Shown here piece by piece: positions 30,967-40,808 of a stretch of 64,000 bases of DNA (its first letter is position 1; each line of letters opens with the position of its first letter). The DNA is taken from positions 1,364,001 through 1,428,000 of the forward strand of contig NZ_JBANRL010000001.1 in assembly GCF_037154015.1 (NCBI RefSeq), read 5' to 3'. The DNA comes from Altererythrobacter aquiaggeris. Lineage in GTDB: Bacteria > Pseudomonadota > Alphaproteobacteria > Sphingomonadales > Sphingomonadaceae. The translations under genes were made by a program, and so were the position numbers. The notes below the pieces were generated by a model, which saw only the letters and a list, made by a program, of their open reading frames with translations, had not been told where the DNA came from and searched no databases.

Positions 30967-31392
30967 TATCTAAGTCCCTTTGAAGTCGAATCTCTATCTC
31001 GGCTTTAGCAACTAACCACCAAATACTACAATCTCTTTTCGCCAGCCGGATCGAGGAGCCCACACATAGTGATATAATTACCACCGCCCGTCGATGCAAA
31101 TCCGGCTGGTCCAAATAATTCTGTGGCAGACAGGGTGTCCGGCAAATATTCGTACTTTTGCTTAATTATCAAGAGCTTAAGGGCAAATATTTGGCCCTCA
31201 CCGTTATCAACCCTTACATGCGCGCAAGGCTGCAATTTAGCTAGATTGGCATACTAGTCGGGTTTAGAACCGGACTTTTTGCCAAGAAACGCTCTGTGCC
31301 AATAGTTCGCGATCTTAATTTTTAAAATTCAGCGAAAGGATTGAAACAAATCAAATTTCACGTAATTCTATTGCGAAAGCAAAGGGAGAGGC
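30967..31392. other. 426-base intergenic region containing the left border of the island
   Basis: No convincing gene. Composition becomes AT-rich from left to right. At 31124-31137 there is a 14-base sequence with 13 matches to the 3' end of tRNA-Ser in the same orientation (see repeat). AACCCTTACA at 31209-31218 recurs at 40609-40618, just inside the right end. The promoter of the exonuclease gene must lie in the last 150 bases, and AAAGGGAGAGGC before 31393 is its ribosome site. A 69-codon leftward frame with a TTG start (31026-31235) has no ribosome site and is not called. Confidence 0.5.
31124..31137 (+). repeat. Candidate left attachment site (imperfect copy of tRNA-Ser 3' end)
   Basis: TGGCAGACAGGGTG matches TGGCGGACAGGGTG at 40719-40732 at 13 of 14 positions as a direct repeat. 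The right copy is the CCA end and acceptor stem of the tRNA gene next to the integrase. The match stops abruptly after 14 bases, shorter than most tRNA att sites, so this is only a candidate. Confidence 0.4.
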
Positions 31393-32244
31393 ATGAAATT
31401 CATTGCAGTCGACTTGGAAACCGCCAACCCACGGATGAGCAGCATTTGTCAGATTGGCATTGTTGCATTTGAAAACGGCGTGGAAACCCGCTCTGAAACT
31501 ATCTTGCTTGACCCGCAAGATTACTTTGACCCGTATAATGTCAATATTCATGGAATTGACGAAGCAGCTGTTCGCGGAGCGCCAACCTTTCAGCAAGTTC
31601 ATAACCGAATCTGTGAGTTAGTTGCTGGCGAAATCGTCGCCTGTCACACACATTTTGACCGTGTAGCGCTTGCGCAGGCTTGTGGTCTGCATGAGTTGGA
31701 CCCGCTGCCTTGCAACTGGCTCGATACAGCACGTGTCGCGCGGAGGGCTTGGAATGAATTTTCAAAAACTGGTTATGGACTCAAAAACATAGCGAGTAAG
31801 TTCGGTATTGAGTTTCAACACCATGATGCTGAAAGCGATGCTCGTGCTGCGGGCTTAATTCTAATCAGAGCAATGCAAGATACGGGCTTTTCGCCAAGCG
31901 AATGGGTTGATCGGTGCAAAAGTAGTGGCACTTCATCGCAAGGTTTTAGCGTAAAGCGCGAAGGTGATGGCGATGGACCGCTGCTTGGAGAAACCATAAC
32001 ATTTACTGGCTCACTTCTCGTTCCGCGCCGTAATGCCGCTGACATGGCGCATGAAGCAGGGGCGGCAGTCAGTCCCGGTGTTACGAAGAAAACATCATTA
32101 CTTGTCGTTGGCGATCAAGACATTGAGCGGTTGAATGGCAAATCAAAGAGCGGAAAACACCGCAAGGCGGAGGCACTAATCGAGGGTGGCCAATCCATTC
32201 GGATTCTTGGAGAGGCAGACTTCATGAAGCTATGCAAAACCTAG
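31393..32244 (+). CDS. DEDDh 3'-5' exonuclease fused to a BRCT domain
   Basis: 283 residues. The N-terminal domain (1-165) is a DnaQ-like exonuclease: AVDLETAN with Asp and Glu, a central HTHFD, and the C-terminal HHDAESDA giving the His and Asp of the DEDDh group. The C-terminal domain (about 195-280) is a BRCT domain like that of NAD-dependent ligases (GETITFTGSL, the small-residue turn EAGAAV, LLVVGDQD). Such exonuclease-BRCT fusions occur in phages, islands and some polymerase III epsilon-like proteins. It probably trims DNA ends in replication, repair or defence. AAAGGGAGAGGC precedes the start. It is the first cargo gene of the island. Confidence 0.9.
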   Translation: MKFIAVDLETANPRMSSICQIGIVAFENGVETRSETILLDPQDYFDPYNVNIHGIDEAAVRGAPTFQQVHNRICELVAGEIVACHTHFDRVALAQACGLHELDPLPCNWLDTARVARRAWNEFSKTGYGLKNIASKFGIEFQHHDAESDARAAGLILIRAMQDTGFSPSEWVDRCKSSGTSSQGFSVKREGDGDGPLLGETITFTGSLLVPRRNAADMAHEAGAAVSPGVTKKTSLLVVGDQDIERLNGKSKSGKHRKAEALIEGGQSIRILGEADFMKLCKT

Positions 32245-32435
32245 CATTTCTTGCCGGTTGAATTTGAATGTCAGAGCCATTGGTTGGAACATTACACATA
32301 TGCTCACAAGCTGATTCAGCCTCTTCAATGTGGACCACACCTTAATCAATTTCGACTGGAAAAAACTTAATGATCTTTGAAATCATTGACGTTATATGGC
32401 CAAAATGAACAAAGTTTTGATAGAGGCGCACTTTT

Positions 32436-32843
32436 GTGGGTGATTTCCCAAAATGGATGCCGGATGGCTGCCCACAAGATTCCGAAGAAATTGAATGCAC
32501 CTTGTATCGTGGTTGTAAGGACAATCCCCCTAGTGATGAGGATTTAACACCACACGCGCTTTCTTCGAAGCCGCGCAAGCAGAAACTAGCAGAAGGTATG
32601 GGCTGCATCGGCTTCGCACTGTCTGTTTGGGTGACTGAAGCAGATGCAACTCATGCGCAAAAGCTATTCCCTAAGCTGGGTGCAAAGTGGCATATTTTTG
32701 CAGCGAAAGTTTCGAAGACTGATGGACAGCTTGCGGCAACCCCGTCCAGAAGCCAGCCCGGGCATCACAGTTATTGGCCGTATGAGAACGTCGATTTGAA
32801 GGGTCGCCTTTCCTTAGCAATTCCTCCATTGGTTAATTCGTGA
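32436..32843 (+). CDS. Unknown protein, first gene of a coupled two-gene cargo unit
   Basis: 135 residues, not recognised. It starts at GTG 32436 (GAGG about 10 bases upstream); an internal ATG at 32457 could also serve. The sequence is mostly soluble with Cys at three positions in the first 60 residues and a His/aromatic cluster near the end (HHSYWPYENVDL). The stop overlaps the next gene (TGATG), so the two products are probably made in fixed ratio. Base composition is that of the island, lower in GC than the flanks. The 190 bases before it hold no gene. Confidence 0.65.
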   Translation: MGDFPKWMPDGCPQDSEEIECTLYRGCKDNPPSDEDLTPHALSSKPRKQKLAEGMGCIGFALSVWVTEADATHAQKLFPKLGAKWHIFAAKVSKTDGQLAATPSRSQPGHHSYWPYENVDLKGRLSLAIPPLVNS

Positions 32844-34009
32844 TGGCTGGCTCAAACGCTTTTAATGCAAATTGGACCGGTGAGGTGCTCTCTCCGGACG
32901 AGATCCTGTATTATCTCGATGGCCCCGCAATATTCTTGAAGAGCGTTGGACCGTTCACGTTCCTTTTTGTAAAAGCGGACGAGAAAGACGAGTGCGATTT
33001 CTACATTGCCTCGCAAATTGCTAGTAAACAGGTCCGCTATTTGAAATCAGGCAAGCTGTCTGTGCGTGGAGCACTTCTAAGCGGTAACCTGTGGGTGTTT
33101 GAGCTAGATTTGGACTTGACCGTGCTTCGGCACGAAGAGGTGAGCGAAAGCGAAATTGAGTCTTTCCTTCCGCAACAGGGAATAGCGCTTCGGGCAGACT
33201 TTGGCGTTGTCCCAGATTCAGTTCAACAATCTGAAGCGTCATATGCGTTCAAGTTCTTTGGCGATGAGATGAGCGAGAAGGGCATGCCGTTCTCGACGTT
33301 TAAGGGTCTGGTTGATGATGTTTATTCGACACTTCGCAAGGTCTTAACCCCCCCATCTTTAGGGCACGGTAAATCTACTGGAGTTTTGGATTTTCCTGTT
33401 CGCCAACCCGAATTTGCAAGCTTAGTTATTGCAGTAGATGCCCCAGAAATAGATTTGGCTCGTTTCAAGCGAGGAAAGAAGACTAAGGATTTAGACGCAA
33501 ACGAGGTTTTGGCAGAATCTGAAGTGTTGGGCGTTGATTTTGCTCAGCACCTCAAGCGGACAGTGGACGTGATGGGAGCACACGGACTTCCTGATAAGTA
33601 TGCAAGCGACAACCTCGACTTCCTCCTCACACTCGTCGATATATTACCCAGCCAACGCGGCGATGTTAAGCGGATGCAGTTCTCGACAAATGGTAGGGGT
33701 AAAACTGACGTATTCGTCGACGTTGACCTTTTGACTGCCGAAAAAATTCGAGCGTCTGTCAGAGAAGTTGAAGACCAAGAAGCAAGGGTTCATGGTTTTA
33801 TTTCTGGGATTTTGGAGGGGTCTAATTCGCTTAGGATTAAGACCATCTACAAGAGAGAAATCACTTGCAAATTGAGCGCCGAAATATTTGATGAGATATT
33901 GGGCGAAGGTAAGTTGGTGATCGGAAAGCCAGTAATTGTAGAGGGTCTTTTCACAAAGCGCCAGTTACGGGATTTCATGAAGGTTGAGGTTCGGCCCACA
34001 TTTCCTTGA
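32843..34009 (+). CDS. Unknown protein, second gene of a coupled two-gene cargo unit
   Basis: 388 residues, not assigned to a known family. The first 200 residues look like an alpha/beta domain (alternating hydrophobic strands such as VGPFTFLFVKADEKDECDFYIAS). The middle is helical. The last 80 residues have a strand-rich pattern resembling a small beta-barrel (VHGFISGILEG, LRIKTIYKREITCKL, GKPVIVEGLF). No membrane segment, Walker motif or clear nuclease motif was seen. ATG 32843 overlaps the upstream stop (TGATG); GTG 32840 is the alternative. It is followed by a 200-base gap. Its place among island cargo suggests, but does not show, a defence or host-interaction role. Confidence 0.7.
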   Translation: MAGSNAFNANWTGEVLSPDEILYYLDGPAIFLKSVGPFTFLFVKADEKDECDFYIASQIASKQVRYLKSGKLSVRGALLSGNLWVFELDLDLTVLRHEEVSESEIESFLPQQGIALRADFGVVPDSVQQSEASYAFKFFGDEMSEKGMPFSTFKGLVDDVYSTLRKVLTPPSLGHGKSTGVLDFPVRQPEFASLVIAVDAPEIDLARFKRGKKTKDLDANEVLAESEVLGVDFAQHLKRTVDVMGAHGLPDKYASDNLDFLLTLVDILPSQRGDVKRMQFSTNGRGKTDVFVDVDLLTAEKIRASVREVEDQEARVHGFISGILEGSNSLRIKTIYKREITCKLSAEIFDEILGEGKLVIGKPVIVEGLFTKRQLRDFMKVEVRPTFP

Positions 34010-34225
34010 TAGGTTCGGGTTCACGTATGTCCGCCGATATTGCATCACAAGTGACTGTATTTGATAACGTTATTTTTAAATAGCTCGGTGGCGTTGCCTT
34101 CAACCCTTACCCTGATGCTTCAACTGCAATTTTGGAGTGCTCAATAAATTAAGAATATCTTTGTAGACAAATGACTTGTTTCGCTCAATGGCCAGAGCAT
34201 TGGCGAAAAACAGGGGGTATTGGCT

Positions 34226-34579
34226 TTGTCTGAACTTGAAAATTTGCGCGCTACTCAATTGGATAAAAATGAGACTTCAAGTGGCTCGCCTGAGCGACTT
34301 AGCGATAGCAAAAGAATGCTCATAGAGCAGCGAATTGCGAACGAAAAACCAAGCACCGGCGCGGCTTATCTCCTTTGCCTTTTTCTTGGCGCTTTCGGCA
34401 TACACCGACTCTATCTTGGCGAAAAAGGAACTGGCATTGTGATGCTAATTCTTGGCATAACTATCATTGGATTGCTCGTCACTGGCGTGTGGGCATTCAT
34501 CGACTTGTTTTTAATTCCATCAATCATCCGTAGACGGATGGACGAATTGCGGCAGCGTCTTACCCTAGAAGCGATGTGA
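34226..34579 (+). CDS. TM2 domain membrane protein
   Basis: 117 residues from TTG 34226 (GGGGG lies 8 bases upstream; TTG 34220 is also in frame). After a charged N-terminal part (1-40), the TM2 signature appears: AYLLCLFLGAFGIHRLYLGEKGTG, then a second hydrophobic helix (VMLILGITIIGLLVTG) and a third short one. The charged C-terminus is cytoplasmic. TM2 proteins occur in all domains of life; bacterial members are often cargo in mobile elements and their role is unknown. It is the last rightward gene before the oppositely oriented block. Confidence 0.85.
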   Translation: MSELENLRATQLDKNETSSGSPERLSDSKRMLIEQRIANEKPSTGAAYLLCLFLGAFGIHRLYLGEKGTGIVMLILGITIIGLLVTGVWAFIDLFLIPSIIRRRMDELRQRLTLEAM

Positions 34580-34590
34580 TCTAGCCGGCT

Positions 34591-34962
34591 TCAGATTGCC
34601 CCCCACCCGCGATAGCGAATATCCTCTACGCCTATGCCAGCCAGAGCAAGCGGGTCGATGATACCGCCGCTCTGGCTGGCAATGGGTAAATTGTTAGGCT
34701 GTGGCGGGATTTCAGTCGCGTCCGGCACATAAACCGCCCAAAGCGTCCTAGCGCCTGTGGTGGCCGTGGCGCGCCTCACTAGATCGCTAAGGCTTTCACC
34801 CTCTTGCCGGTCAATCTCGAAGTTAGGCCCACCGATGCCCACAATATCAGCTTCGCAAGCATCCTCGACAGCAAACATCACTGTGGGCAGTTGACGGTGC
34901 CGGGAATTGCGTTGCTTTTCCAGCCGCTGAATACGCCGGGTCAATGTCAGGTGACGAGCCAT
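34591..34962 (-). CDS. Island protein of unknown function with N-terminal coiled-coil-like motif
   Basis: 123 residues, starting MARHLTLTRRIQRLEKQRNSR, a short basic helical stretch often seen in small phage proteins. The rest is soluble with no recognised motif. The start ATG 34962 shares one base with the stop of the upstream gene (TAATG). It is convergent with the TM2 gene, 11 bases away. The combination with the next gene resembles paired small proteins near phage packaging genes, but no packaging gene is present here. Confidence 0.6.
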   Translation of the reverse strand: MARHLTLTRRIQRLEKQRNSRHRQLPTVMFAVEDACEADIVGIGGPNFEIDRQEGESLSDLVRRATATTGARTLWAVYVPDATEIPPQPNNLPIASQSGGIIDPLALAGIGVEDIRYRGWGAI

Positions 34963-35279
34963 TATTTGCCCTCAACTTCATCTAGTCGGCTATTCAATTT
35001 CTCGACACTTTCACGTTCTAGGGTGCGGCTAATTTCGGTTAGGACGTAAACGAGCTTGCCACCTTTAAGCAGGTCAATCTCGCCAGCTTCTAAGCCGCGA
35101 TAAACGCGGGCCATTTCCCGGCGAATTTGCGGGCTATTCTCAAGGCGCACATACCTTTTCCGAGTTTTCTTTGCGGGGGGAGGGGTAGGCTCAATTCCGC
35201 TAGCAGCGGAGGTTTCAACCGCATTGCCGTTACAAAAATCCGCGCTATTGGCGGCGAAAGAGGGCCATCCGTCTGCCAT
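34962..35279 (-). CDS. Island protein of unknown function
   Basis: 105 residues. The N-terminal part is low-complexity (Ala/Pro/Ser-rich, with a basic KKTRKRYVR patch), and the C-terminal half is helical (EMARVYRGLEAGEIDLLKG, then LTEISRTLERESVEKL). The pattern is common in prophage-associated hypothetical proteins, possibly DNA- or terminase-associated. It starts at ATG 35279 rather than at the longer frame end of 35288. It is coupled to the downstream gene by TAATG. Confidence 0.55.
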   Translation of the reverse strand: MADGWPSFAANSADFCNGNAVETSAASGIEPTPPPAKKTRKRYVRLENSPQIRREMARVYRGLEAGEIDLLKGGKLVYVLTEISRTLERESVEKLNSRLDEVEGK

Positions 35280-35336
35280 GATCTGCAAAATAATAAGTCA
35301 AATTTTTTGCTTGGCAAGTTCTATTCACAAATTCTG

Positions 35337-35693
35337 TTAATCAATGTAAGTCGATAAGCAATTTGGCACACTTTCTTTTGTGCGTGTCTGAAGCCAAGGT
35401 TCGGTGTTAGCTAGCTTTGAATTCATTCGCGCCAAAATATATTGACTAAGTTCAGCTTCAGCATCATATATAATTTTAATAGATGCCTGTATTTCGTCAC
35501 GACAATCATACATTTCAAACCTTTCAAACATTAGACTAGCGTATTCTTGGTTTTCTTTGAGCTTAGCCTTAGTTGAACGATAGCTCTGAGCTTTCTTAAA
35601 ACCGGGCATTTCCACAAGCTCTTTTCCGGCTTCTATTTCATTCAAGCAGTTCATTAAAACTCGCACATTATTTAATGCAGCTGGTGAGGACAT
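35337..35693 (-). CDS. Island protein of unknown function, mostly helical
   Basis: 118 residues, not recognised. The sequence is charged and helical from end to end, with a stretch FERFEMYDCRDEIQASIKIIYDAEAEL that could form a coiled coil. A good ribosome site (TTTGGAGT, about 9 bases before ATG 35693) supports expression. Codon use is AT-rich as elsewhere in the island. No toxin or antitoxin signature was seen. Confidence 0.55.
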   Translation of the reverse strand: MSSPAALNNVRVLMNCLNEIEAGKELVEMPGFKKAQSYRSTKAKLKENQEYASLMFERFEMYDCRDEIQASIKIIYDAEAELSQYILARMNSKLANTEPWLQTRTKESVPNCLSTYID

Positions 35694-35757: not shown

Positions 35758-36510
35758 TTAGCCATGAAAGCCAGCTCCGGGCAGCTTGCTATGAATTGCC
35801 TTGGACTTAGCAATATCAGCATCATACTTGTCTAAGCCTTTGCCTAGCTGAGTAATGCCGCGCATATAACCGGAATAAGCTTGCTTCCAGCGAGCATCAG
35901 CTTTTGTCAGGCGCTCAAGATCAGCAACACCGGCAGGGTTGGCTTTAGTGTGGGCGCGCAACCTAATGCTTTCGCGTTGCTCGCTGTTGAGGCCAGTAAT
36001 CAATTCAGGCGAGTTGATTAATATTGCAATTGTCCGGCCATCATCGCTGTCCAACATTTTTGCGATTTCAGCCATCTTATCACTTTGCGATAACCCATAA
36101 AACGCGCCTGTAACGGCATTGATATAGAGCGGGTCAACTTCTGTGAGGTTAGCATCAGCATCAAGTTGCTTCATTGTTCGCTTAATCGCGTTCGCAAGCC
36201 CTGTGCCCACATTATTGAGGATGCTAATGGCTGTCTTGTCTGTGTCTTCAATTTTGACTTTAACGTCCTGCGCGTGTTGAGCCGGGGTAACTGTGGGAAG
36301 CCGGTTAACTCGCACATCATCGACATAGCCAAGCAATTCTTCAATGCGCCCGCCACCATCAAAAGCCGCTTTAAGCTCCGGGATATTGCTAGGGTTATCC
36401 TCATAGCCAAACTTGTTCAGATGATCGGACACACGCGCATTGCCATCGGTGCCTTTTGGAAAGACAGGTGCGAGTTCATCATTGAATTTAAAATTTGGGT
36501 TGGTAGCCAT
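35758..36510 (-). CDS. Island protein of unknown function, 250 residues
   Basis: Soluble, helical protein without recognised motif. It begins MATNPNFKFNDELAPVFPKG; AAAGGA 9 bases upstream of ATG 36510 decides this start over a TTG 30 bases earlier. The middle contains LLGYVDDVRVNRLPTVTP and a run of amphipathic helices (AISILNNVGTGLANAIKRTMKQL). It follows the replication gene and the start-less open frame on the same strand. It may be an accessory replication or structural protein of the element; this is inference from position. Confidence 0.6.
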   Translation of the reverse strand: MATNPNFKFNDELAPVFPKGTDGNARVSDHLNKFGYEDNPSNIPELKAAFDGGGRIEELLGYVDDVRVNRLPTVTPAQHAQDVKVKIEDTDKTAISILNNVGTGLANAIKRTMKQLDADANLTEVDPLYINAVTGAFYGLSQSDKMAEIAKMLDSDDGRTIAILINSPELITGLNSEQRESIRLRAHTKANPAGVADLERLTKADARWKQAYSGYMRGITQLGKGLDKYDADIAKSKAIHSKLPGAGFHG

Positions 36511-36718
36511 TTCAGTAATTCCTTTGGGTTTGTCGGACAATGAGTCCGCCGATTAACGTTGTAATTGTTTCATAAATTGCGCAAAAATAGCCATTGGCCA
36601 TTCTTCACCCTTACATTCATCATTTGTGTCATTTTCTCCTTCAAGTATTGATTGAATAACTCTAGTAAGACTTTCTAATAGTGTTGTAATTATTGGAGCC
36701 TTTTTCGTTTCTGATAAA

Positions 36719-38890: not shown

Positions 38891-39076
38891 TTAAGCAGCC
38901 GCCGCTTCTTCGAGCTTTTTCGCAATGAAAGCCTGAATGTCGGATTGGGCAATAAGTGTCTTTCCGCCAAGTTTTACCCGGCGCAATTCTCCCGATTTCA
39001 TCATTGAATAAATTAAAGTGGTGCCAACGCTAAGTTGCCTTTTAGCCTCGTCGACCGAGAGCAAACTATCTGGCAT
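38891..39076 (-). CDS. AlpA/excisionase-like DNA-binding protein
   Basis: 61 residues with the MerR-like winged helix of the helix-turn-helix 17 family: LLSVDEAKRQLSVGTTLIYSMMKSGELRRVKLGGKTLI, then a short helix and an Ala-rich end. Such proteins act as Xis factors or as activators of integrase genes in P4-like elements and satellites. The ATG at 39076 is preceded by GGAAGGA at about 6 bases. This site lies in a leader with two possible hairpins. It runs into the replication gene with TAAG before ATG. Confidence 0.85.
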   Translation of the reverse strand: MPDSLLSVDEAKRQLSVGTTLIYSMMKSGELRRVKLGGKTLIAQSDIQAFIAKKLEEAAAA

Positions 39077-39196
39077 GGTCGTTCCTTCCAATTGAAGGCC
39101 CGCCAAAACGAAAAAGTGGCGGCGGGCTGTGAATGCCGCCACCCCCTAAGGGTTACTCGGATAGTCGGCCTTGCCCCTATCCAGCTGCTGAAATCG

Positions 39197-39299: not shown

Positions 39300-40568
39300 C
39301 TATTTTATTTTATTCAACAATACTACATTATCAATGCCAAGTAAAAAGCTGCCCCAAACATTCATTAGTTCAATGCGTTTATCATAGTATTTAGTTCTAA
39401 GGTAAGCTGCTTCAGTTGCATTAGTGTTTGCGTGATTAAGTGCAGCTTCAGCGACTTTATCAGGAAAGTTGGTTGCTTCAGCAATCCAGTCGCGGAATGA
39501 GCTACGCGCAATTCCATGAGCGGTAACGCCGGGATACGCCGCCTTCAGCACTTTATTGACAGCAACATCGGAGATTAAACCACTCCTGCCACCACGAAAC
39601 ACGAGATCATTGTGGGCAGATTTATCAGCGGCAAGTTGCTCTAGGATTTCGACAGCTTCAGAATTCAATGGGACATTGTGGCCATCACCATTTTTTGCGC
39701 GTTCACCGGGCAATCGCCAGACCTTTTCAGCCAAGTCTATTTCTGCCCACAATAGGCCGCGCACTTCCATTGATCGCGCCGCCGTTAGAATTGAAAACCG
39801 CAAAGCCAGTGCAGAGACAACTTCAGGTTTGTCGCGAAGCTTGGCCATGATCGCCGGGACTTCACGCCAAGGTGGAGCTGCATGGGGCTTCAGCTTGCCT
39901 TTATCTTTGGCGACCTTTCTAGGCGACACATTGCCAAAGCTGATTTTCAGGTTGCCTTGCCATCTAGCCGGGTTGCTGCGGTCAATTTCGAGTTCGTGAA
40001 AGGCATAATCTAAGATTGCTTCAATGCGCATTCTGACACGGCTGAAGGTTTCAATTTTGCCATCATCCCACAATGGTTTAATTGTCCGCTTCACATCATC
40101 GCGGGTTATGTCAGCCGCCAGCTTGCTGCCGATTTCAGGATAGACATAATCGCGCAACGTGTTGCGCCATTGCTGGCGATGCTTTGGGTTGCTCCAATTC
40201 TTTTCAGCTTCAGCTACATATTCTTCAGCGTAGGCTTGGAAAGTCTGCCCAAGCGAATCAGCACAATCAAGCTCATTCAACTTTCGCGGGTCGCGACCTT
40301 CAGCAATTTCAGTGCGCAATTCATCTTTGAGTTCGCGAGCTTTGGCCAAACTGATTTCAGGGTAAGAGCCAAGACCGATTTCGATAACTTTGCCGCGAGT
40401 TTCAGCATCAGCCCAAGTTGCGGTTTGGGCAACTTTGAACCTGAAAAGCCAGCTTTCACCTTTGCCACGAAAGCGAATATAGAGGTTTTCACCATCAGAA
40501 AGCTGTTTATCAAGCCCTTTACCGGACATTGCCTTAAGCTTTTTATCCGTAAGTAACTTAGAAGCCAT
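39300..40568 (-). CDS. Tyrosine site-specific integrase (P4/DUF4102 type)
   Basis: 422 residues. The N-terminal DUF4102 arm-binding domain reads KLLTDKKLKAMSGKG...YIRFRGKGESWLFRF. A core-binding domain follows, then the catalytic domain with Arg in LTAARSMEVRG (about residue 265), HGIARSSFRDW (His and second Arg) and the nucleophile Tyr in AAYLRTKYYDKR (about 389). It would catalyse integration at the tRNA-Ser 3' end, 150 bases away. The HGIAR spacing is one residue longer than the HGFR often seen. The ATG 40568 was preferred to a GTG four codons upstream. A 223-base gap after its stop separates it from the xis-like gene. Confidence 0.95.
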   Translation of the reverse strand: MASKLLTDKKLKAMSGKGLDKQLSDGENLYIRFRGKGESWLFRFKVAQTATWADAETRGKVIEIGLGSYPEISLAKARELKDELRTEIAEGRDPRKLNELDCADSLGQTFQAYAEEYVAEAEKNWSNPKHRQQWRNTLRDYVYPEIGSKLAADITRDDVKRTIKPLWDDGKIETFSRVRMRIEAILDYAFHELEIDRSNPARWQGNLKISFGNVSPRKVAKDKGKLKPHAAPPWREVPAIMAKLRDKPEVVSALALRFSILTAARSMEVRGLLWAEIDLAEKVWRLPGERAKNGDGHNVPLNSEAVEILEQLAADKSAHNDLVFRGGRSGLISDVAVNKVLKAAYPGVTAHGIARSSFRDWIAEATNFPDKVAEAALNHANTNATEAAYLRTKYYDKRIELMNVWGSFLLGIDNVVLLNKIK

Positions 40569-40718
40569 GATATTTGCCACCTTTCGCGCCAGCCCAATTA
40601 TTTACACAAACCCTTACACGAGAGTTTGGCAGTAGGCGTAACTAGGCGAAAAGCTATGAAGCTCTGCGAAAGCAAAAGTCAAGGTTTTCTGCGGTTTTTG
40701 GGGATTTTGGGAGGTTTT

Positions 40719-40732
40719 TGGCGGACAGGGTG
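40719..40732 (+). repeat. Candidate right attachment site inside tRNA-Ser
   Basis: TGGCGGACAGGGTG is the CCA end and acceptor stem of tRNA-Ser read on the plus strand, and matches 31124-31137 at 13 of 14 positions. Just left of it, the direct repeats of GGTTTTTGG-like sequence at 40694-40720 could be integrase arm sites. Confidence 0.4.
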
Positions 40733-40808
40733 GGATTCGAACCCACGGTGGGCTTGCACCCACGCCGGTTTTCAAGACCGGTGCATTCGACCACTCTGCC
40801 ACCTGTCC
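40719..40808 (-). tRNA. tRNA-Ser (anticodon UGA), target of the island
   Basis: 90 bases including an encoded CCA. The acceptor stem is GGACAGG (40808-40802) pairing with CCTGTCC (40729-40723), the anticodon loop is CTTGAAA with anticodon TGA, a long variable arm is present (GTGGGTGCAAGCCCAC) and the T-loop reads GGTTCGAATCC. Discriminator base G. The integrase gene lies off the 3' end, as usual for tRNA-targeting islands, and the tRNA remains intact. Confidence 0.97.

Follow-up and report, generated by a model that had tools for sequence, protein, structure and literature searches.

The closest described relative of the locus analyzed here is PD-T4-10, a system found in E. coli by phage-resistance selection (Vassallo et al. 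2022, Nat Microbiol; PMC9519451). It consists of two overlapping open reading frames, of which B is toxic and is neutralized by A; A could not be deleted, deletion of B abolished resistance to T4, and the system defends against T-even phages (PMC9519451). The literature that we searched describes no molecular mechanism for PD-T4-10. Among DUF6575 proteins, a function is, to our knowledge, known only for PD-T4-10.

In Altererythrobacter aquiaggeris, the window, which is the whole stretch of 64,000 nucleotides that was analyzed, contains an integrative island whose GC content (45-51%) is lower than that of its flanks (53-61%). Two overlapping genes in its cargo, here called A and B, probably constitute a toxin-antitoxin-like anti-phage module of the PD-T4-10 kind, with predicted toxic and defensive properties. 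The island and its genes are laid out as follows:

31125-31137, + strand: left attachment site GGCAGACAGGGTG, a copy of the tRNA-Ser 3' end identical to the right-hand repeat at 12 of 13 bases
31393-32244, + strand: DEDDh 3'-5' exonuclease with a C-terminal BRCT-like domain, 283 aa (Pfam, PHROGs, NCBIfam)
32436-32843, + strand: protein A, PD-T4-10_A relative and predicted antitoxin, 135 aa, GTG start
32841-32845, + strand: TGATG stop/start overlap of A and B (TGA 32841-32843, ATG 32843-32845)
32843-34009, + strand: protein B, predicted toxin/effector, 388 aa from the ATG at 32843 or 389 aa from a GTG at 32840
34220-34579, + strand: TM2-domain membrane protein, 119 aa
34591-34962, - strand: conserved backbone gene (homologues in sister islands L047 and L048)
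34962-35288, - strand: conserved backbone gene (homologues in L048 and L046)
35337-35693, - strand: island gene with no assigned function (open reading frame listing, Pfam search)
35758-36540, - strand: conserved backbone gene, 260 aa
36799-38970, - strand: primase/helicase-like replication protein with AAA_25 (Pfam, PHROGs)
38891-39142, - strand: excisionase-like HTH protein (PHROGs)
39300-40580, - strand: tyrosine integrase of the island, adjoining tRNA-Ser (Pfam)
40719-40808, - strand: tRNA-Ser(tga), the integration site, with the right attachment repeat GGCGGACAGGGTG at 40720-40732

The original prediction had taken the four rightward genes at the left end as the cargo of a satellite-like element and as a possible new defense system. 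All four reading frames are present as listed, and the TGATG junction of the middle two can be read directly in the sequence.

The resemblance of this pair to PD-T4-10 begins with gene order, as A precedes B on the same strand and the two genes overlap, here through a TGATG that probably couples their translation. It extends to homology of A over nearly its full length, a comparison made through the PADLOC models and the homologue in genome G342 and not with the E. coli proteins themselves. The PD-T4-10_A model of PADLOC matches protein A with an E value of 1.2e-6 (residues 12-125 against model positions 26-141 of 148) and is matched by 8 of 11 members of the A family, at best with 1.6e-10. 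Furthermore, a profile comparison of protein A with the A protein of G342, which precedes a full-length PD-T4-10_B match (L003, 8e-26), gave an E value of 1.8e-7 and a probability of 94%. For the first codon of A, the beginning MGEFPAWFPEGCP of the homologue in L027 favors the GTG at 32436. Both members of the pair had been described as lacking any recognized domain; this holds for Pfam, PHROGs and NCBIfam, in which neither A nor B has a significant match, but not for PADLOC, in which A is matched as PD-T4-10_A. The idea of a wholly new system is thus superseded, since the pair is a distant relation of one already assayed in E. coli (PMC9519451). When the A and B profiles were run against the sequences of solved structures, nothing beyond chance matches came up. 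A weak match of A to DUF6651 (0.14) was disregarded.

Protein B is connected to known families through its relatives. The Pfam model of DUF6575 (PF20215) did not match the window's own B at E values up to 1, and the PADLOC PD-T4-10_B models did not match it either. Among the nine proteins of the B alignment A5, eight match DUF6575 (best 9.6e-7) and three match PD-T4-10_B (best 3.5e-10), and one relative of B (G452/L021) lies above the Pfam cut-off for DUF6575. The AlphaFold model of B (pLDDT 85, pTM 0.68) suggests a DUF6575-type N-terminal domain, a middle domain and a C-terminal OB fold resembling those of IF1, YgiW, SSB and RPA. Using Foldseek, the model was matched to a phage DUF6575 protein (BFVD A0A8S5QA00) with an E value of 4.3e-16 over 419 alignment columns, covering most of B, at a global TM of only 0.3, and therefore the arrangement of the domains may differ. 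Judged by its homologues and its predicted structure, B is a member of the DUF6575 family. The structure prediction and remote-homology search suggested in the original prediction have in this way led to PD-T4-10_A for one protein and to a DUF6575 protein with an OB fold for the other.

The likeness of B to its PD-T4-10 counterpart is confined to the N-terminal part, in which the DUF6575-type domain is common across the family, whereas the C-terminal half of the window's B is predicted to be an OB-fold module instead of the PD-T4-10B C-terminus. Because of this unlike half, we treat the pair as a variant within the PD-T4-10 kind, distinct from PD-T4-10 proper; taken together with the lack of a PD-T4-10_B match, it also means that toxicity may not carry over. 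The C-terminal parts of several B-family proteins resemble, by weak matches, nothing more than candidate defense proteins of PADLOC (PDC-M32A and PDC-M63B), and a published test of PDC-M63AB in its native host saw no defense (PMC12409345). As a widespread fold, the OB fold does not pinpoint a target. A match of B relatives to SesA (0.027) was disregarded.

The pair recurs well beyond this island. Using profiles of A and of the N-terminal domain of B, and with the G342 pair added, we counted 21 distinct B loci besides the window, and in 18 of these A immediately precedes B (the loci without A are L004, L035 and L038). These B loci belong to Pseudomonadota, Acidobacteriota, Myxococcota, Planctomycetota and Actinomycetota and to two viral contigs. 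Within the order of the window's genome the pair is rare and patchy, being present in 4 of 401 genomes, that genome included. Full-length homologous pairs were found in G300 (A 40% and B 41% identity) and in the Acetobacteraceae genome L027 (A 48% and B 44% identity). The pair of G300 adjoins a tyrosine integrase at tRNA-Gly, that of G342 a serine recombinase, and that of L025 an integrase in a prophage contig; several copies are outside evident mobile elements. Two observations speak against a defensive toxin-antitoxin pair: the relatives L027 to L030 lie in ordinary chromosomal surroundings, and some decaying copies combine a damaged A with an open reading frame of B. The neighborhood survey proposed at the outset thus gave a divided answer, with the pair recurring at 18 other loci, some of them beside integrases, but never beside an exonuclease. 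It is neither a known housekeeping or structural phage gene pair nor restricted to a single island. Contig loci of B were recovered only with an alignment-based query, as a single B protein used as the query gave no hits in viral and genome contigs; for A, an alignment of the whole set of proteins proved too heterogeneous for the contig scan. In tblastn searches, the window's B had no match in phage records and matched only a Rhizobium N-terminal fragment in plasmids.

Across these loci, the B proteins have in common an N-terminal domain (~110 residues), and the remainder differs. In proteins of the window type, the shared domain is followed by the predicted middle domain and OB fold; other B proteins end in a PD-T4-10B-type C-terminus, which is also found alone in P2-like prophages, and three members of the family carry an M78 (ImmA/IrrE) peptidase at this position. 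Such constancy of A and of the N-terminal domain, set against C-termini that vary, points to the N-terminal domain as the probable site of action of A and to the C-terminus as the probable effector.

The island of the original prediction is genuine, as seen from its low GC content, its integrase at a tRNA gene, its attachment repeat and its empty sites. The two copies of the repeat correspond at a level for which the expected number of chance matches is 0. Both same-genus genomes examined (G297 and G356) have an empty site in which the flanks are joined at the 3' end of the tRNA. From the repeat and the empty sites, therefore, the island extends over ~9.6 kb (~31.1 to 40.7 kb) and has been mobile in evolutionary terms. 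A scan for promoters and terminators gave no excess over shuffled sequence. Like P4-like satellites and tRNA-targeting islands, this element has an integrase at a tRNA, an excisionase-like protein, a primase-helicase and a variable cargo end; integration at a tRNA together with its own integrase, excisionase-like and replication genes makes it a candidate satellite-like element. It differs from P4-like and PICI satellites in that no packaging, capsid-remodeling or capsid-interference gene was recognized on it with Pfam and PHROGs.

Two sister islands, in G111 (L048) and G745 (L047), have the integrase and several backbone genes in common with the island. Outside the backbone, G111 holds proteins without assigned function, one of which reads as a membrane protein. 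The corresponding cargo of G745 includes a Hydrolase/Hydrolase-TM pair recognized by PADLOC (8e-82 and 3e-28) and a PDC-S60-like protein; therefore, at least one further island of this type bears defense genes. The left end of the tRNA-Ser island type is a place to seek more of them.

If the pair works as its relationship to PD-T4-10 suggests, A would be translated first, in step with B through the overlap, and would bind B, probably at the DUF6575-type N-terminal domain, holding it inactive. Phage infection would then disturb the balance between A and B and free B. The C-terminal part of the freed protein, comprising the middle domain and the putative nucleic-acid-binding OB-fold module, would stop growth, possibly by acting on nucleic acid or translation, and the spread of the phage would be blocked, so that the pair would work by abortive infection.

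Other readings of the locus have to be weighed against this one. That the exonuclease-BRCT protein, A, B and the TM2 protein form one new defense system, as first suggested, now appears very improbable. The four genes are adjacent and co-directional in the cargo region, and the exonuclease domain, a solid assignment (Pfam RNase_T, 6.5e-17), resembles the nuclease of the PADLOC candidate PDC-S48 (1.8e-30), but neither the exonuclease nor the TM2 protein has a homologue near the pair at any other pair locus. Relatives of the exonuclease occupy ordinary chromosomal settings, without A or B nearby in any of the four family genomes inspected, and the one in G075 sits exactly between recN and ligA. 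Of 151 family genomes, 25 have TM2 proteins, among them G297 and G356, both of which are without the pair, and gaps of ~190-210 bp flank the pair on either side. Since the two outer genes are absent from the other pair loci and have relatives without the pair, A and B are a unit of their own, and the genes for the exonuclease-BRCT and TM2 proteins most likely travel on the island as passengers independent of it. As for what these passengers encode, the TM2 protein was correctly recognized (3e-15), as was the exonuclease; its BRCT domain is weak in Pfam (0.0013, below the cut-off) and supported by PHROG DNA-ligase matches. A defense module at the left end of the island is hence retained for the A-B pair, through the PD-T4-10_A match, DUF6575, recurrence and the sister island, and given up for the four genes together. 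The roles within the pair could also be reversed, with B the regulator of A and A an active ADP-ribosyltransferase-like enzyme whose target might be, for example, NAD or a molecule of the phage. The confident model of A (pLDDT 93) agrees with this, as its top Foldseek matches among solved structures are nearly all of the ADP-ribosyltransferase fold, RES and ParT toxins included, and seven residues (P9, C12, P13, C57, S63, H110 and W114) are invariant in an alignment of 16 homologues from several phyla. We nevertheless hold it to be highly unlikely: these fold matches are weak (best E 0.067, probability 0.63, TM ~0.4), the strand-1 arginine (Arg25) is kept in only 13 of the 16 homologues, no conserved glutamate is visible across them, and the toxic partner in E. 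coli is B and not A (PMC9519451). With low confidence, we describe A as a degenerate, probably non-catalytic ADP-ribosyltransferase-like fold, which would resemble the RES/ParT toxins in predicted fold, by a weak match, and differ from them in its place on the antitoxin side and in lacking the conserved glutamate.

A rival closer to our reading is that the pair is a toxin-antitoxin module that mainly stabilizes the island against loss, phage defense being secondary or absent. An antitoxin-first order of small overlapping genes is typical of toxin-antitoxin loci, which is the arrangement seen here, and the pair is found next to integrases on integrative elements. We judge this role unlikely, however, as several copies are not part of any evident mobile element and the sister island carries other PADLOC defense genes in its cargo and not a known stabilization module. 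Moreover, the only tested relative was picked out by selecting for resistance to phages, and it protects against T-even phages (PMC9519451). A non-defensive function, regulatory or in the handling of nucleic acid, for the use of the host or of the element, would suit the resemblance of the OB fold to domains of IF1, SSB and RPA and the copies placed among chromosomal genes. It has, in our view, a very small chance of being right given the homology to a tested defense system, the patchy distribution in the order, the mobile contexts and the defense genes in the cargo region of the sister island.

Taking the preferred reading, an anti-phage module of the PD-T4-10 kind, beyond this locus, it is possible, and we suggest it tentatively, that A and the DUF6575 proteins make up a broad modular family of immune pairs. 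Such pairs would combine a degenerate ADP-ribosyltransferase-like A with a sensor-like N-terminal domain and interchangeable C-terminal effectors (OB fold, PD-T4-10B type or M78 peptidase), and PD-T4-10 would be one branch among them. This picture appears to be undescribed in the literature searched for DUF6575 and PD-T4-10. Joining PD-T4-10 to a family that spans at least five phyla, with differing C-termini, provides a concrete and testable plan, and it raises the questions of which part of B is bound by A, what each C-terminus targets and whether A itself senses phages.

An M78 (ImmA/IrrE-like) peptidase was found joined to the DUF6575-type N-terminal domain, which in the window opens the predicted toxin B of the cargo pair, at three loci:

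L021, 7159-9168: DUF6575-type N-terminal domain and M78 peptidase
L037, 642-2387: DUF6575-type N-terminal domain and M78 peptidase
L039, 5953-7839: DUF6575-type N-terminal domain and M78 peptidase

The gene for A, the predicted antitoxin, lies immediately 5' of the fusion in all three, and the M78 part shows likeness to the PADLOC models capP and RmrA.

Several copies of the A/B pair appear to be in decay. A is damaged (broken or shortened) at L030, L032 and L034, B is shortened at L031, L036 and L038, and a search beside B at L035 found no A gene. In some of these copies B is still open despite a damaged A, which would be unexpected if B were always toxic. On the Rhizobium plasmid pRlX5 (L004:3355-4510), two N-terminal fragments, one from GmrSD and one of the DUF6575 type from B, overlap each other and look like decayed defence genes.

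The C-terminal module of PD-T4-10_B also stands alone at the ogr end of P2-like prophages, without A or the DUF6575 domain, as in Salmonella NZ_CP092913.1 (L011:3369-4010; PADLOC, 1.3e-34), where ogrK and fieF flank it. Copies of this lone module with at least 99% identity occur in 159 of 5,426 E. coli genomes.

The sister islands carry cargo other than that of the window island. In G745 (L047:4252-7761) this comprises a Hydrolase/Hydrolase-TM pair together with a PDC-S60-like protein; in G111 (L048:11458-13311) a 309-aa protein of unknown function accompanies what appears to be a membrane protein, and the two may be an unrecognised defence pair. The window's own genome seems to retain parts of a second such island elsewhere (C1, ~128-129.4 kb; L046:8675-9850), where the backbone genes at 34965 and 35761 have homologues; neither an integrase nor a cargo homologue was found near these.

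In genome G075 (L070:6649-11302), recN is directly followed by a relative of the island's exonuclease-BRCT gene that overlaps the ligA start, suggesting a role in DNA repair for this exonuclease family.
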